From Caldicellulosiruptor saccharolyticus DSM 8903 (lineage in GTDB: Bacteria > Bacillota > Thermoanaerobacteria > Caldicellulosiruptorales > Caldicellulosiruptoraceae): DNA of 64,000 nucleotides. Below are positions 56,788-64,000 of this stretch, in pieces (within the stretch, counting starts at the first letter, position 1; each line of letters starts with the position of its first letter). The position numbers and the translations under genes were made by a program. The DNA lies in NCBI RefSeq assembly GCF_000016545.1, contig NC_009437.1, forward strand, positions 847,501-911,500, read 5' to 3'. The notes beneath the pieces are model-generated. The model did not search any database. It was not told the DNA's origin and saw only the letters and a program-made list of their open reading frames with translations.

Positions 56788-56846
56788 GTTTTTATGGCTA
56801 TTTTCGTTACTTTACAAAAAATTAAAAGAAAGGAGATTTGAATAAT

Positions 56847-57473
56847 ATGAAGATAATCGATGTAAGCCTTGACATCTCCAATGAGACCATTTCATTTCCA
56901 GGTGATCCCAAAGTAGAAGTAAAAAGAGTTTTTGACATCACAAAAGGTGATATTGCAACAGTGAGCAAACTCTCTTTGTCTTCACATACAGCAACACATA
57001 TAGACGCACCTGCACATTTTATAAAAGGTGGGCTGACAGTTGACAAAATTCCTCTTGAACACCTAATGGGCAAGGTAAAGATTTTCGAGGTGCCAGAAGA
57101 GGATAAAATAACAAGGAGTTTTCTTGAGAAAAAGCATATTGAAAGAGAGAAAGCTATATTTTTCAAGACAAAAAACTCACATTATTTAAATTCGAGCAAT
57201 TTTTATCAAAAATATACGAGTCTCTCACTTGATGCAGCAGAGTATCTCATAGAAAAAGGTATAAAGGTGGTAGGGATTGATTATCTTTCTATCGAAGAAT
57301 ATGGTTCGGATGAATACCCAGTCCATAAAATCCTTCTTTCCCACGGCGTTTTAGTTATTGAAGGTTTGAATCTTCTTGGAGTTAAAGAAGGCAAGTATGA
57401 ATTTATAGCTCTACCGCTTAGGATAAAAGGTTGTGATGGAGCGCCTGCAAGAGTGGTTCTGATAGAGAAGTAG
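56847..57473 (+). CDS. Cyclase-family hydrolase (kynurenine formamidase-like)
   Basis: The 208-residue protein has the metal-binding signature SSHTATHIDAPAHF of the cyclase/KynB family. IDVSLDISNETISFPGDP opens it and VVGIDYLSIEEYGSDEYPVH follows. The family includes arylformamidases and isatin hydrolases; no tryptophan-degradation genes are nearby, so the substrate is unknown. ATG 56847 is taken over a TTG at 56838, because AAGGAG lies immediately before the TTG. It is a single-gene unit between two terminators. Confidence 0.86.
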   Translation: MKIIDVSLDISNETISFPGDPKVEVKRVFDITKGDIATVSKLSLSSHTATHIDAPAHFIKGGLTVDKIPLEHLMGKVKIFEVPEEDKITRSFLEKKHIEREKAIFFKTKNSHYLNSSNFYQKYTSLSLDAAEYLIEKGIKVVGIDYLSIEEYGSDEYPVHKILLSHGVLVIEGLNLLGVKEGKYEFIALPLRIKGCDGAPARVVLIEK

Positions 57474-57487
57474 AAATCATGACAACA

Positions 57488-57545
57488 AAAAACCTCCCCC
57501 TTGTTATGGAGTTTCTTTCATCTATCTTGTGGGGGGGAGGTTTTT
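57488..57545. terminator. Bidirectional terminator
   Basis: AAAAACCTCCCCC and GGGGGAGGTTTTT pair perfectly across a 32-base loop, between the cyclase gene and the convergent chemoreceptor remnant. Confidence 0.75.
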
Positions 57546-57550
57546 CGGTT

Positions 57551-58035
57551 TTAGTTTTTCTCTGAATCTAAAATATTGCTTTGAGCAATGGCTTGTCCTG
57601 AACTATTCATATCTCTTGTTTTAAATCTTTCAACCAAACTTTGTAAACTCTCTGCTTGGCTAAACAATTCTTCACTCGCTGCTGCTGTTTCTTCAGAATT
57701 TGCCGAGGTATTTTCAACACCTTTTGCAACTTCGGTTATACTCTGTACAATTTGAGAAATGGCATTTACTTACTCTCTAGACGAATATTTAACATTTTGG
57801 ATCTAAATATCTCTTGAGCTTCTTCTCTACTTAATTTTCCTTTCTGCACTTGTGTTTCTAATACTTCCATAAAAGCAATTCCCATATTTACTTTATTTTT
57901 TAGTGCAGCTATTCCTAAATTTGTGAGAGCTTTTTTGGAGATATTGTAGGCTATAAATTCTAAGACAGTTGTACTAATCAAAATGATTCCAATAAATGTC
58001 AAAGCAATTGTCCATTTAATACTGTTCTTACCCAC
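57551..58035 (-). pseudogene. Chemoreceptor remnant with internal deletion
   Basis: From GTG 58035 a frame of 89 residues encodes the start of a methyl-accepting chemotaxis protein: one membrane helix and the beginning of a sensor (NKVNMGIAFMEVLETQVQKG). It then runs directly, in a shifted frame, into the extreme C terminus of a receptor: YSSRE, an in-frame TAA where the neighbouring receptor has Gln, then NAISQIVQSITEVAKGVENT and SEELFSQAESLQSLVERFKT. The HAMP domain and nearly all of the signalling helix are missing. The tail closely resembles that of the adjacent receptor. It cannot make a working receptor. Confidence 0.85.
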
Positions 58036-58217
58036 AGTTTTGTACCCTTCCCAACGCTATTTTGTTTGATTATTTTTGTGACTAATATTAACTTTTGTAC
58101 ATTTGTTAGCTATTTATATCATTCTTAGCTGATTAAAACTTTTGTGTTAATTTAAATTGAGTAATTGATTTTTTTGACCTTCAAACCAAGGTCACAGTAC
58201 TTTTAATTAATTTACAT

Positions 58218-59412
58218 TTAATTTCTTGTTTTAAACCTTTCGATTAAAGCTTTCAAACTTTCTGATTGACTAAATAATTCTTCACTAGCTGCTGCAGTTT
58301 GTTGAGCATTTGCAGAATTGGTTTGAACAACGTTTGCGACTTGATTTATTCCTTCTGTAATCTGTTCAATAGCTTGGGATTGTTCTCGTGATGAATACAA
58401 AATATCATTCATTATCATTACCATTTTATCTACCCCACTACTTATCTTGTCTAAAGCTGACTGAGTCTGCTTTGCAATGATGTTTCCTGTTTCTATCTTT
58501 TTGATAGTAGTTTCAATTAACTCACTTGTTTCTTTTGCTGCGTTTGCACTTCTTGTTGCTAAGTTTCTGACTTCTTCAGCGACAACAGCAAAACCCTTGC
58601 CATAACTACCTGCTCTTGCAGCTTCAACTGCTGCGTTCAAAGCTAAAATGTTTGTTTGGAATGCTATTTCGTCTATTGCTTTTATAATCTTTGAAATGTT
58701 GCTTGACACAGTATTTATTTCCTCCATCGCTTTTATCATTTCTTGCATTTGCTCAATACCATGTCGGGCATCACCCTTGACTTGATTTGCAAATTTACTT
58801 GCTTCTTCAACATTATGTGCATTTTGCTTAGTTTGAGTGGAAACTTCTTCAATAGAAGCATTCAGTTCTTCAATTACACTTGCTTGTTCACTTGCACCTT
58901 CAGCTAAGCTCTGGCTTGCATCAGATAACTGTTTTGCTCCAAGAGCAACCTGTTCTGAAGCTGATTTGATACCAGCAATAAGCTGGTTTAAGCTATTTAT
59001 CATGTTTTCAAAACTTGATGCTAATTGTCCTATCTCATCTCTAGATTCATTTTTTATCTCGGCGGTAAGGTTTCCATCTGCAATCTGCTGAGCGACATAA
59101 ACCATTTGATTTAATGGTTTGCTTATACTGTTAGAAATAAAAATGCCTATAAACAATGCAAGACCGATACAACAGATAGTAACAAGTATCATAAATATTT
59201 CTGTAGATGATTTGACTCTATCATTTTGACGTTTTGTGTTTTCTATATATCGTTTTTCCATTTCATATAGATTATTTATAGAAGTTTGTACATTTGATAC
59301 AAGTCTAGCTGAATTTGGATCAAACAACAAATCAATTGCTTTCTTTTTGTCTATTCTTGCCAAATTAACAATGTTATGCATTAATTTATAATAATCGTTA
59401 AGAAGTACTTTT
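58218..59412 (-). pseudogene. C-terminal part of an IS-disrupted chemoreceptor
   Basis: From the insertion point the frame reads LLNDYYKLMHNIVNLARIDK. The second membrane helix, a HAMP domain (NSISKPLNQMVYVAQQIADG) and a complete signalling domain follow. The hairpin tip is IIKAIDEIAFQTNILALNAA with VEAARAGSYGKGFAVVAEEV, ending at ERFKTRN. Translation could begin internally at ATG 59381, giving a 387-residue product without most of the sensor, but no ribosome site is visible there. The N-terminal part lies beyond the IS at 60530-60895. Confidence 0.9.
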
Positions 59413-59469
59413 TAGCTTGTTGAATAAAACAGATTAACAGAAAAGACAATAAATAGATATATATAAAAA

Positions 59470-59534
59470 GCCATCCTCCTTAAGGTAAAATTATAGCAAG
59501 AGAAGACTAAAAACACGTAACTAAGGAGGATGGC
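59470..59534 (+). promoter_or_regulatory. Inverted repeat covering the transposase ribosome site and first ATG
   Basis: GCCATCCTCCTTA (59470-59482) and TAAGGAGGATGGC (59522-59534) are perfect 13-bp complements with a 39-base loop. In an RNA containing both arms, the Shine-Dalgarno AAGGAGG and the ATG at 59530 would be locked in the stem. Confidence 0.8.
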
Positions 59535-59535
59535 A

Positions 59536-60483
59536 ATGACTAATTTTATTAAAACACAAAAACAAAAATTTTTAAAGATACTTATGACAATTGAGAAAGT
59601 AATAAAAGCCTTGGGATTAAAGATAAAAAGTAGCAGGAGAGGAAGACCGAAGAAATTTAAGCTAAGCCATATAATAGCTTGTTTTGTTTACAAAGTCAAA
59701 AACAAGATAAACAGTTTCAGGGAATTAGAATACAAGATAAATGAAGATGAAGAATTTAAAAAGGCTATAGGGATAGAAAAGAGCCCCGATCATACATATT
59801 TTTCGAAATGGGCAAAAGTAATTGAAGAAGAATATATAGAAGGGATAGCAAGAATTTTAGTGAGAGAAATAGATCCGCAGACAAAAGTTTGTGCTATAGA
59901 TTCTACACCTTTGAGAAGCTCGAGGGGTGACAAAGAGGCAGAAGTAGGAGTATGTGTTAGTTTAGGTTTTTACAATGGGTATAAATTACATGTGTTAGCA
60001 ACAGTTGAAAGCGAGGTTATACCTATAGTATGGTGGTTGACATGTGCAAATATCCATGACAGTAAAGTAGTAGAACTTTTGTATGAAGCTAAGATATTTG
60101 GACCTGAAGTGATATTGGCAGATGCAGGTTATGATTGTGCGAAATGGTTTGAGGTGTCAGATAGACTTGGGATGAAGTTTGTAGCGGCGGTAAATAAGAG
60201 AAATAGTAAGGATTTCAGTAATGTAAAAAATATTTTGAGGATAAAAAATATGGAATTTTTAAGAAGCGAAGAAGGACAAAAGTTATATAAGCAGAGGACA
60301 AAAATAGAAAGATTATTTGGTAAGTTAAAAGGAGAATACAATTTAGAACAAGTAAGGTTAAGAGGTTTTAGAACATATAAGAAGCATGTAGACTGGATTA
60401 TGATTACTTATTTGATAGAGGTCTATATTCAAAAAATTGAAAACTGTAAATTTTCTTTTAAATACACGTGGAATAATTTATAG
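59536..60483 (+). CDS. DDE transposase
   Basis: ATG 59536 (MTNFIKTQKQKFLKIL) lies six bases after GGAGG; ATG 59530 sits too near that site. The 315-residue protein has a basic N-terminal region (SSRRGRPKKFKLSHIIACFV) and a DDE_Tnp_1 catalytic core. First Asp is in VCAIDSTPLRSS, second in ILADAGYDCAKW, and the Glu in RTKIERLFGKLKGEYNLEQV. It appears full length, so the IS may still be mobile. The exact IS family needs comparison. Confidence 0.92.
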   Translation: MTNFIKTQKQKFLKILMTIEKVIKALGLKIKSSRRGRPKKFKLSHIIACFVYKVKNKINSFRELEYKINEDEEFKKAIGIEKSPDHTYFSKWAKVIEEEYIEGIARILVREIDPQTKVCAIDSTPLRSSRGDKEAEVGVCVSLGFYNGYKLHVLATVESEVIPIVWWLTCANIHDSKVVELLYEAKIFGPEVILADAGYDCAKWFEVSDRLGMKFVAAVNKRNSKDFSNVKNILRIKNMEFLRSEEGQKLYKQRTKIERLFGKLKGEYNLEQVRLRGFRTYKKHVDWIMITYLIEVYIQKIENCKFSFKYTWNNL

Positions 60484-60529
60484 TTCTATATAGTAACATT
60501 AATGGTATAATTATTTATTCAACAACTTG

Positions 60530-60895
60530 AAGTACTTTTAATTTGTTATATTCATTGCTAATATCATTTTCCTTTATAGTTTTTTCAAACAGTTGTAAGT
60601 TGCTTTTGTAGAATTGATCTATTTCACTAATTTCTTGTATATACCTGTTCATTTCGTCTTTATTTCTTGAAAGTAAAATGTTCCTTGAATTTATTCTTTG
60701 TCTCTCAAAACCTTCCAAAACATTACTTATGTATATAAAGGCTTTGACATTATTTTCGTACATTTCTGTATATGTATAATTAATCTTGTTAATACTATTT
60801 ATCCCGATAATACCAACAATACTTAGCAAGAGTAAGACTACTATAAAACTTGATAAAATTTTTACAGATATTTTCATGTTATTAAATAATTTCAT
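60530..60895 (-). pseudogene. N-terminal part of the IS-disrupted chemoreceptor
   Basis: From ATG 60895 behind GGAGGGTGA the frame encodes a first membrane helix (SSFIVVLLLLSIVGIIGINS). A four-helix-bundle sensor (4HB_MCP type) follows, with INYTYTEMYENNVKAFIYI. It is cut after NEYNKLKVL, and reading into the IS adds only a few residues before a stop. It follows cheW by 17 bases and was the third or later gene of the chemotaxis operon. Confidence 0.9.
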
Positions 60896-60912: not shown

Positions 60913-61407
60913 TTAGTTTAATTTTATTACTTTATCAGGCAATACAAGCTTTTCACAATCCAGGATTAAAATAAGTCTATCTGTCAGATTTCCCACATAT
61001 CTTACAAATTTGTTTTCGTCATCAGCCTCACTAATATCGGGCGGTGTAGAGAGAGCTTCTTCTTTTATAATTAAAACTTCGCTTACATAATCAACAATAA
61101 GCCCTACATCAACATCATTTACGTTTACTACAATAATACACGTTCTGTCATCATATTTCCTAAATTCCTTTCCCATTCTAATTCGAACATCTATCACAGG
61201 AATAATTTTCCCTCTTAAATTAATTACACCTTTTACATATGGTTGTTGATGAGGAATTTCTGTAATTGGCTGAATGCCAATTATTTCAGTAACATATCTT
61301 ATTTCAATAGCGTAAAATTGATTTTCTATTTTAAATACAAGATATTTGTCCTTCATACCATCTTCTGTATCAAAGACAACCTCTTTGTCAAATTCCGAAT
61401 TTTTCAT
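60913..61407 (-). CDS. cheW: Chemotaxis coupling protein
   Basis: The 164-residue protein matches CheW. LVFKIENQFYAIEIRYVTEI opens the domain and PYVKGVINLRGKIIPVIDVR is the conserved core. VGLIVDYVSEVL also fits. It links chemoreceptors to CheA in arrays at the membrane. ATG 61407 follows AAAGGAGGCGG and overlaps the cheA stop by four bases. Confidence 0.95.
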   Translation of the reverse strand: MKNSEFDKEVVFDTEDGMKDKYLVFKIENQFYAIEIRYVTEIIGIQPITEIPHQQPYVKGVINLRGKIIPVIDVRIRMGKEFRKYDDRTCIIVVNVNDVDVGLIVDYVSEVLIIKEEALSTPPDISEADDENKFVRYVGNLTDRLILILDCEKLVLPDKVIKLN

Positions 61408-63359
61408 ATATTCCGCCTCCTTTCAGTTACTCGAATATGTTCAAATAAACCACTTATGTCTAATATTAGAGCAATAGATCCATCTCCTAACAAAGTACAG
61501 CCAGAGACTACTTGCGCATTTCTCAACAGCAATGGCAATGGTTTTATTACTATTTGTTGCTGAGAAATCAAATTATCTACCAACAATACTGCTTTTTTAC
61601 CGTTTTCTTCTATCATTACACCTATGTTGAAGGTGTTAGAGTTGAATTCTGTTTCCTTGCCAAAAAAAATCTTTTTTAAGTCAACCAACGGATAGCATTC
61701 CTCACGTAACAAAATAAATTTTTTTCCTGCTTCTAAAATTATCTTGTCAGTATCAAGTCTTATTATCTCAACCATAGAGGTAATTGGAATTACAAATTTT
61801 TTAGAATTTAGTTCAACCAACATTCCATCAATTATTGCAAGAGTCAATGGGATTTTTAGCGTAAAAGAGGTACCTCTACCCTTTTCTGAAGTTACAAGTA
61901 TTTTTCCACCAATTCTCTCTATATTGTTTTTAACTATATCAAGTCCAACTCCTCTCCCTGAGTATTCTGTTGCTTCGTCTTTAGTTGAAAATCCTGGCAT
62001 GAATATCAACGAATAAATATCCTCATCAGTTAAATTATTTTTAGACTTAATTATTCCTTTTTCTAATGCTTTCTCCAATATCTTCTCTCTGTCAATTCCC
62101 CTCCCATCATCTTGAATTGTTATTAGTACCTCTGAATTAGTACTTTTTGCGTGAATATAAAGATTTCCCTCTTCAGCTTTCCCCTGTTTTCTTCTCTCAT
62201 CAGGTGTTTCTATCCCATGGTCTATGGCATTTCTTACTAAGTGTATGAGTGGGTCTGTTATGTGCTCAATCATCATTCTGTCAAGTTCAGTTTCTTCTCC
62301 AGTAACGTAAACAGTTACTTTCTTATGGAGCTTTTCAGACACTTCAAGAGCGACCCTTCTTAACCTTTGGAATGTGTTCGAGAGAGACACCATTCGCATA
62401 GACATTGCTATTTCTTGGAGTTCGTTTATTACTCTTGAAACTTTTGAGTAAGATTTTTTAAAGTCCTCCGAAGCAATTCCAAGTGATTCTACACTTAGAA
62501 CCAATCCTGAAAAGTTGATTAAAAGTTCGCCTATTAAGTCTATTATTTTGTCAACTTTTTCAACATTAACGTTGATAATTTTTTGCCCGAGATTGGTATT
62601 TCCACCTCCCAATTTGGAACCATTTTGAGAGAACTCTTCGTTAGACATGTTATCTGCAAATTCAATTTCTATATTAGATAAATAAAGAACATCATCAAAA
62701 AGCTGAAAAACTTCATCTTTTTCAAGTACAGTTTCTATTACTAATTCGAATCCCTTTTTTTGTATTACATCTGCTGTGTTTGGGTCATTTTGTATATTCT
62801 TTGGAGTATAATCAATAATATCACCCACATCTTTTAACTTCCAAATAACACCATAAGCTCTTACATTTTCCATGCCTGCTCCATCTTCAAAAAATACTTT
62901 AATACGATACTTCTTTTTAGTTTTTTCAATATTGTCCACAGAGGCTGTGTTTTGATTTTCATTGATATTTTCTATTAACTGATCGATTAATTTCTGAGCA
63001 GTGCGGGAAGCAGAAAAATCTGTAGTTTCAATTGAGTCAATGTCGAGATTTAAGCAGTCTATAACTTTTAAAAAACAATTGATAAGCTGGTCAACAATAT
63101 TAGGTGTTATATGTATTGAGTTTAATTTTACAAATAAATCCTCTGCCTTGTGGCATACTTGGCTTATATCTGAATATTTCATAGCTGCTGATGATCCTTT
63201 GAGTGTATGGAAAATGCGCATAATGTCATTGTTTACATTTTTGAGTATTAACTTTCTTTCTTTAAGACAAATGAATATGTTTTCTAAGTCGTTAAGAAGT
63301 TGTTTTGACTCCGCAATGAAAATTTCAAATAGTGGGTCTTTAAACTTTTCTTCCATCAT
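61404..63359 (-). CDS. cheA: Chemotaxis histidine kinase
   Basis: The 651-residue protein has the CheA order. The Hpt domain with the phosphorylated His is in IFHTLKGSSAAMKYSD. A P2-like domain lies at ~145-245 and a dimerisation domain at ~265-330. The ATPase has HLVRNAIDHGIETPDERRKQ, DDGRGID and GRGVGLDIVKNNIERIGGKI. A CheW-like domain ends the protein. ATG 63359 or 63356 follows AAGGTGAT. It controls a motility or other output through a response regulator that is not in the window. Confidence 0.95.
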   Translation of the reverse strand: MMEEKFKDPLFEIFIAESKQLLNDLENIFICLKERKLILKNVNNDIMRIFHTLKGSSAAMKYSDISQVCHKAEDLFVKLNSIHITPNIVDQLINCFLKVIDCLNLDIDSIETTDFSASRTAQKLIDQLIENINENQNTASVDNIEKTKKKYRIKVFFEDGAGMENVRAYGVIWKLKDVGDIIDYTPKNIQNDPNTADVIQKKGFELVIETVLEKDEVFQLFDDVLYLSNIEIEFADNMSNEEFSQNGSKLGGGNTNLGQKIINVNVEKVDKIIDLIGELLINFSGLVLSVESLGIASEDFKKSYSKVSRVINELQEIAMSMRMVSLSNTFQRLRRVALEVSEKLHKKVTVYVTGEETELDRMMIEHITDPLIHLVRNAIDHGIETPDERRKQGKAEEGNLYIHAKSTNSEVLITIQDDGRGIDREKILEKALEKGIIKSKNNLTDEDIYSLIFMPGFSTKDEATEYSGRGVGLDIVKNNIERIGGKILVTSEKGRGTSFTLKIPLTLAIIDGMLVELNSKKFVIPITSMVEIIRLDTDKIILEAGKKFILLREECYPLVDLKKIFFGKETEFNSNTFNIGVMIEENGKKAVLLVDNLISQQQIVIKPLPLLLRNAQVVSGCTLLGDGSIALILDISGLFEHIRVTERRRNI

Positions 63360-63388: not shown

Positions 63389-64000
63389 TCATCTACTTGT
63401 ACAAACTTCTTCTATTCGTTTTTTTAGGTCAATATGTTTTCTAAAAATCTGCTTAAATAATCTTTCTTTTGTGGTGTCAGAAACCATTACAAATGCATAT
63501 TTGTAATAAGAGCTTTCTTTTGTTACTGGATAATTACACACAATTCGACCATTTAAGATTAGTTCTTCTCCATTTTCAAAAAGTACTTCCATTTTGTAAA
63601 GTTGTGACGTATCAAATTCACACATACTGTTGCATTCAAACAACAGATCCTCTTCCGATAATTTTCGAATATTAACACTTATTCTTCCTTCTTGAGTTAT
63701 TATGAATGCTTCTAAGTTCCATAGCATACAAACACAACTATTTTTCTCAACAGTTCTTATTTTTGAAATTAACCACGTTGTTTCGTCTAAAGGTATTGCA
63801 TGAACATTGTATTCATAAATTGAACTAAGTACTTCAATAACCAAATGTGCCGAAACTGAGTTTCTTAAATCTAGCTTATTTGTAACTATTTCAATTAGTT
63901 TAAAGTAACCCCTTGTTCCATCAAAGTAAAAGTATCCATTCAAACAACACACTTCTTTTCCTTCACCGAAATGTAGCAATAGCATCGCAGGGAATATTCT
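63389..64000 (-). CDS. PilZ-like domain protein, 5' end outside the window
   Basis: The frame is open from the window edge to the stop at 63389. The ATG at 63985 has no ribosome site in the 15 visible bases, so the true start is probably upstream. The C-terminal ~110 residues look like a PilZ domain: GRISVNIRKLSEEDLLFECN, a hydrophobic core MEVLFENGEELILNGRIVCN, and a closing helix TTKERLFKQIFRKHI. The c-di-GMP-binding arginines are not clear, so ligand binding is uncertain. It ends 30 bases before cheA on the same strand and likely belongs to the same operon. Confidence 0.6.
   Translation of the reverse strand, partial: RIFPAMLLLHFGEGKEVCCLNGYFYFDGTRGYFKLIEIVTNKLDLRNSVSAHLVIEVLSSIYEYNVHAIPLDETTWLISKIRTVEKNSCVCMLWNLEAFIITQEGRISVNIRKLSEEDLLFECNSMCEFDTSQLYKMEVLFENGEELILNGRIVCNYPVTKESSYYKYAFVMVSDTTKERLFKQIFRKHIDLKKRIEEVCTSR

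Follow-up and report, generated by a model that had tools for sequence, protein, structure and literature searches.

In Caldicellulosiruptor saccharolyticus DSM 8903, within the 64,000-nucleotide stretch of DNA analysed here (the window), an open cheA and cheW pair lies close to a short chemoreceptor remnant (57551-58035, minus strand), in which the head of a receptor is followed, one frame apart, by the tail of a receptor, and which is almost certainly a deletion pseudogene. We consider it likely that the locus as a whole is explained by a dead receptor gene, a replaced operon and the loss of both matching receptors. The head of an sCache_2 receptor is fused out of frame, almost certainly by deletion, to the end of a receptor that aligns to the 36H type; on this account, the operon would have been acquired from outside, or would be an ancient second copy, and would have replaced a native operon that was lost here; and it would then have lost both of its matching receptors, one to a deletion and one to an insertion sequence. 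This would have left the CheA/CheW pair without receptor input, with flagellar chemotaxis running on other CheA genes and receptors.

Chemoreceptor pseudogenes and receptors split by insertion sequences are found in other bacteria, where internal deletions, frameshifts and insertion sequences are the lesions involved, and receptor decay of the kind seen in the remnant is a common form of gene decay. In contrast to receptor pseudogenes elsewhere, both of the 36H-type receptors found here are damaged with CheA and CheW open. It is the setting that is worth keeping: an operon common in the genus is gone from its site, a diverged counterpart stands elsewhere, both receptors are broken, and the kinase and coupling protein are open. 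This offers a natural case of what CheA does once its own receptor class is gone, together with a test case for whether the length-class rule, by which different heptad classes do not mix, predicts gene decay. All readings are taken from one sequence of one strain, in its assembled form rather than as reads.

A receptor head joined to a receptor tail

The head (57787..58035, minus strand) was recognised from its frame, its homology and Pfam, and runs from a GTG start through membrane helix 1 into an sCache_2 sensor, of which it keeps the first third. Its frame runs for 89 codons, from the GTG at 58035 to a TAA at 57766-57768. Pfam assigns residues 40-87 to sCache_2 positions 4-51 of 155 (E 6e-10), and the receptor-like part of the frame is its first ~83 residues, after which six out-of-frame codons follow. 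The last codon with homology to the head is 57789-57787, and homology to the tail starts at about codon 57787-57785, so that the joint (57787..57790, minus strand) is uncertain by a few bases, with the tail one frame out. The tail itself (57551..57790, minus strand; stop at 57551-57553) was found by homology and represents the last ~78 codons of a chemoreceptor, that is, the C-terminal end of a signalling domain in 36H-type alignment together with ~19 extra residues; its translation reads KYSSRE*VNAISQIV...ERFKTRD...DSEKN*. At the DNA level, it matches the neighbouring receptor at 71% over 177 bases (57611-57787 against 58221-58397). An in-frame TAA (57770..57772, minus strand) stands where the neighbouring receptor has Gln (KYSSRE*VNAIS against LYSSREQSQAIE).

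The remnant has lost membrane helix 2 and HAMP, along with the greater part of both the sensor and the signalling hairpin. What is left of a complete sCache_2 sensor between two membrane helices is the segment covering profile positions 4-51; the second helix is absent as read from the sequence, and Pfam finds neither HAMP nor MCPsignal in the head frame. The initial annotation had described the first ~80 codons of a receptor joined to its last ~75, with HAMP and signalling domains deleted. The span 57551-58035, the out-of-frame joint and the Gln-to-stop change near it were all correctly read, and the two lengths come to about 83 and 78 codons; the loss was larger than described, taking in membrane helix 2 and the bulk of the sensor as well.

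The remnant therefore shows the features of a deletion pseudogene: its ends are homologous to intact receptors, its middle is gone, its frame is lost, and it bears traces of past constraint. As the sequence reads, the out-of-frame fusion together with the further stop in the tail frame excludes the production of a receptor. A promoter scan across 57440-58260 gave 4 sites against 2.7 +/- 1.8 in shuffled sequences, which is no excess. We also looked for an insertion sequence at the joint and saw none there, and a deletion caused by such an element was set aside on this ground. The tail was likewise rejected as a recent duplicate of the end of its neighbour, given a DNA identity of 71% and a dS of 1.36.

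Relatives of the head and constraint on both ends

The head matches a receptor of Thermoanaerobacter wiegelii Rt8.B1 at 70% over 88 aa (E 4e-36), and the tail, as protein, aligns with the last part of the neighbouring receptor at E 6e-16, values that exclude a chance match at either end. The T. wiegelii receptor (L095:7983-9746, 587 aa) resembles the head in its start, its membrane helix 1 and the first part of its sCache_2 sensor. Unlike the remnant, it possesses a full sensor, a HAMP domain and a 44H-type signalling domain, and its end is unlike the remnant's tail. It adjoins apparent histidine breakdown genes (names taken from translations only), and no cheA was seen within the 16 kb around it.

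Such relatives are sparsely distributed. The head has no match at E 0.001 in the 11 other genomes of the genus and none in 72,556 plasmid records, and in this genome neither a second copy of the head nor a second sCache_2 match (E 0.001) was found. Among 37 genomes of the class it matches two, this one and T. wiegelii (G016; 71%, 587-aa frame). When one genome from each GTDB species was scanned, a search sensitive to close relatives only, three loci emerged, in T. wiegelii Rt8.B1 (69%), a Caloramator MAG (62%) and Clostridium acetireducens (54%). A phylum-wide sample of 398 genomes gave matches in 11, this one included; the best of the others is an open 595-aa frame (G183, 63%) and the remaining ones lie at 26-40%. 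Two of the four close relatives are thus open, full-length receptors (T. wiegelii, 587 aa; G183, 595 aa). In the Caloramator MAG (L096:3199-4953) the frame is interrupted, the receptor ending early and continuing in another frame, and in C. acetireducens (L097:8001-9709) the head match and the remainder lie in different frames; both are draft assemblies, in which error and decay look the same in an interrupted frame.

Full-length sCache_2 receptors, with frames of 584-609 aa, are present in seven other genomes of the genus (G002, G003, G005, G006, G007, G009 and G010). The head gave no match at E 0.01 to those of G002, G003, G006 and G009, and orthology with this group was rejected on the basis of these four unmatched copies and of all seven genomes being unmatched at E 0.001.

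Over 82 codons, the head and the T. wiegelii gene are identical in 74% of bases and 73% of residues (dN 0.18, dS 1.28; 12/16/35 differences by codon position), and over 59 codons, leaving out the stop codon, the tail and the neighbouring receptor give dN 0.25 and dS 1.36 (19/9/26), where dS values above 1 are near saturation and a single pair is silent on which branch the constraint acted. These dN and dS values suggest that for the greater part of their separation head and tail were both under constraint in working genes, and that they were broken late.

The neighbouring receptor is split by an insertion sequence

The receptor next to the remnant is in two pieces. Its C-terminal part (58218..59381, minus strand), identified from Pfam and frames, is a 387-codon frame with membrane helix 2, HAMP and a complete 36H-type signalling domain, while its N-terminal part (60515..60895, minus strand), identified in the same way, carries a 4HB_MCP_1 sensor and has last codons that run into the insertion sequence between them. 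This element of ~1.12 kb (59413..60530, plus strand; ends good to ~2 bases) encodes a DDE transposase (59530-60483) and has on both sides a direct repeat of 9-11 bases containing AGTACTTTT. Once the insertion is removed, the two parts form a single frame of 516 residues, which aligns without gaps, at 66%, to the 516-residue receptor of a counterpart operon in another Caldicellulosiruptor genome (L077). No further damage was seen in the neighbouring receptor beside the insertion, which is therefore probably recent. The 387-codon part could still be expressed, as a full, open signalling unit.

The L077 receptor is of the 4HB kind and has a 36H-type signalling domain, with the end of which the remnant's tail aligns at 59-66%. 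It belongs to a cheY-cheA-cheW-receptor operon, the same context as that of the split neighbour; unlike the remnant, it has a four-helix-bundle sensor, is intact, and lies at another chromosomal site. Beyond the N-terminal part of the split receptor come cheW (60913..61407, minus strand; 164 aa) and cheA (61404..63359, minus strand; 651 aa), both open by their frames and by Pfam, with Hpt, P2, dimerisation, ATPase and CheW-like domains in CheA. Thus the description of a receptor split by an insertion sequence next door, and of an operon with both receptors broken and cheA and cheW intact, was borne out.

Length classes and the ancestry of the remnant

Between the conserved hairpin tip and the C-terminus lie 139-140 residues in the neighbouring receptor, and likewise in its ten counterparts (L077-L080, L082-L087). 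The corresponding distance in relatives of the head is 154-166 residues, as measured in 12 of 15 (L095, L096, L097 and L118-L129, of which L096, L119 and L122 were unmeasurable), the values 154 and 161 being lower bounds that run to the locus end. Three of these 12 are close relatives (L095, L118 and L097; 54-71%), and identity falls to 26-38% in the remaining nine. Six further receptors encoded in this genome (L003-L008, including the broken L006) are also long, at 165-166 residues, and five are without a length class (674, 546, 330 and 681 aa, and a truncated one of 314 aa), leaving the split neighbour as the only other 36H-type receptor found. The difference of ~28 residues corresponds to four heptads per arm, which is the gap between 36H and 44H; the class names are those of PMC6943060 and were assigned here by residue length rather than with MiST models. 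In the remnant, the hairpin tip is deleted, and the tail aligns gap-free to the 36H-type neighbour, which at 139 residues is four heptads per arm shorter than other receptors at 165-167.

Since the tail aligns to the 36H type whereas the measured relatives of the head are of the long type, the remnant could derive from one gene or from two. The initial annotation had taken head and tail to be parts of one receptor, which does not hold as stated, because the 12 measured relatives of the head carry a longer signalling class than the tail. It is quite possible that two receptors once stood side by side, one an sCache_2 receptor of the 44H type and the other a further 36H-type receptor, and that a deletion then took out all but the beginning of the former and the end of the latter: not one of the 12 relatives has the 139 residues of the 36H type, and the tail's gap-free alignment fits an origin in a separate gene. 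Swaps between sensor and signalling domains are, however, common among receptors; only three of the 12 measured relatives are close; a second 36H-type receptor would suit the operon; and a single gene is the simpler ancestor. A single receptor with a swapped sensor is therefore somewhat more likely than the ends of two adjacent receptors.

Length classes have been linked to pathway types. According to the MiST 3.0 account, the receptors preferred by F7 pathways are of the 36H class, and those usually present in F1 pathways are of the 44H class (PMC6943060), and mixing is described as restricted to receptors of equal length, with exceptions discussed (PMC9855816). The sole pointer of this operon to the F7 type is the 36H-like length of its receptor.

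Origin of the operon

Nine of the 11 other Caldicellulosiruptor genomes (L077-L080, L083-L087) carry the counterpart operon in the order cheY-cheA-cheW-4HB receptor, and in the three annotated loci (L077, L079 and L084) it is flanked by a nucleoside phosphorylase on one side and a transporter on the other, as named from translations. G004 has no CheA of the operon's kind (best E 2.8e-84), and its best MCPsignal match has E 4e-35, where the operon receptor of the other genomes reaches ~1e-49. The native operon of G003 is found split over two distant places (L081 and L082). One and the same 442-aa frame recurs close to both halves, and the split probably came about by rearrangement at repeated elements.

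A comparison with the orthologous operon of related species, as suggested in the initial annotation, thus proved informative, revealing intact counterparts at another site and an empty native site in this genome. Here, the flanks join directly at 2,430,080-2,430,084 (L145, 2,427,000-2,433,000) and are 95% identical to the flanks in G003. The operon under study sits instead between a second che cluster and a convergent gene to its left (56838..57473, plus strand), which we take from family resemblance to be cyclase-like. Its G003 copy is 91% identical and has no che operon after it; in the stretches read, neither the operon nor the second cluster follows it in G003, G009 or G008, and the second cluster does so in G007 and G004. 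Upstream of cheA, on the same strand, lies a gene for a 555-aa HD-domain (HD_5) protein (window 63389-63985 and beyond; L088:7889-9556), and the three annotated loci showed no HD_5 gene next to their counterpart operons.

The CheA of the operon shares 47-50% identity with its ten genus counterparts, whereas the nearby proS is 98% identical in G003 and G009, which we took on this basis as the nearest relatives within the genus set of 12 genomes, this one included. CheY is 86-92% identical among the native operons, and its best match in the surrounding locus (L088) is at 36%, with none adjacent in the manner of the native gene. In a tree of 18 CheA sequences (11 from the genus and seven of 15 from outside it), the operon's CheA falls outside the clade of the ten genus CheAs (support 100/99). 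Grouping it with G003 is rejected (p-AU 4e-5), as is grouping it with G003 and G008 (p-AU 0.0018). In the same tree, G009 pairs with G005 by its CheA (100/100), although the proS and cyclase-like gene of G009 are nearly as close to those here as are the G003 copies. CheA history thus departs from that of the neighbouring genes elsewhere in the genus as well, which makes it unsure that G003 is the sister to be expected. Base composition was considered as a marker of origin and rejected as not distinctive, the genes of the operon having a G+C content of 24-34%, against 34.9% for the window, and not being clearly foreign.

Taken by its site, the absence of a leading cheY and the position of its CheA outside the genus clade, this operon differs from the native one, and it probably either entered from a related lineage outside the sample or survived as an ancient second copy, as judged from these comparisons. 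It would be less expected, and we consider it unlikely, that the native operon was relocated beside the second che cluster, with fast evolution under relaxed constraint thereafter. Such a move would account for the shared order cheA-cheW-4HB receptor, for the empty native site, and for a CheA that is far closer to those of the genus (609-649 bits) than to 15 CheAs from outside it (at most 431 bits, in the phylum sample at a cut-off of E 1e-110). The branch of the operon's CheA, at 1.01 changes per column, is long, so that fast evolution is not fully excluded. Yet the tree and the tests place this CheA outside all ten of the genus, the C-terminal part of the split receptor is still 67-70% identical to its genus counterparts, and an adjacent native-like cheY is missing. 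An acquired or anciently duplicated operon therefore remains our preferred reading, and the picture of a native operon simply losing an input is not supported as it stands, given the divergence of the CheA and the vacant native site.

Chemotaxis genes in the rest of the genome

The genome is a single contig of 2,970,275 bases, in which 15 MCPsignal matches correspond, by our grouping, to 12 receptor genes, the remnant not being among them. Three of these are damaged: the split neighbour and the genes at 2,676,874 and 961,213. The first of the two distant genes (L148:2719-4823, ~2,676,700-2,678,800) is a frameshifted pseudogene in four segments with alternating frames. The second (L147:2087-3031, ~960,600-961,500) is a 314-aa frame that ends 72 residues past the start of the hairpin tip; directly after it, on the opposite strand, comes a 403-aa frame with weak helix-turn-helix matches below Pfam cut-offs, which may be a transposase. 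The nine other receptor genes are open frames of 330-732 aa. One of these (L005; 2,636,330-2,636,716), at 498 aa against 715 aa for its apparent counterpart in G003, is possibly shortened.

FliG is present in all 12 genomes of the genus, this one included, and two further CheA matches are found here, at 1,445,132 (query residues 12-636) and 917,774 (276-640). Given FliG, these CheA matches and the remaining open receptor frames, chemotaxis as such has probably been kept. This agrees in part with the earlier suggestion that one sensory input was lost rather than chemotaxis: the proposed count of receptor and flagellar genes supports the persistence of chemotaxis, but the pathway of the operon has probably lost all inputs of its own. 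As both 36H-type receptors found in the genome are broken, the CheA/CheW pair may well be a kinase without a matching receptor. We think it improbable that this foreign module persists by running on the sensorless 387-codon receptor part, as a constitutive signalling unit beside flagellar chemotaxis.

An assembly or sequencing artefact, arising from a collapse between similar receptor genes, had been named as the outcome that would overturn the deletion. Although receptor genes do have conserved stretches in common, such a collapse is very unlikely, since no second copy of the head is found in a genome that assembles as one contig, in which head and sCache_2 have one match each; in addition, the tail and the last part of the neighbouring receptor share no more than 71% identity, and the two further damaged receptors make decay a pattern in this genome. 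Least credible of all is that the 89-codon head, with its open frame and a plausible ribosome site before the GTG, has been kept as a small functional membrane protein, as the frame ends inside the sensor domain and then adds six out-of-frame codons, no relative of such a size was found among the head relatives, those that are open being full receptors, and in the Caloramator MAG and C. acetireducens the head continues, with an interrupted frame, towards a receptor.

Among published work, as covered by titles and abstracts, we found no paper pointing to this locus, and it may be described elsewhere. A transcript study of C. saccharolyticus lists an induced chemotaxis cluster, Csac_0811-0812, 0814 and 0816 (PMC5658599). 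The second che cluster (L088:10531-19680, ~913,500-922,700) contains a 674-aa receptor frame with two signalling domains, together with separate CheA-like proteins of 550 and 334 aa that resemble a split kinase. Short, split-type CheA proteins have been noted in C. saccharolyticus (PMC2829493), and by our own linking, these may be the two proteins of the second cluster.
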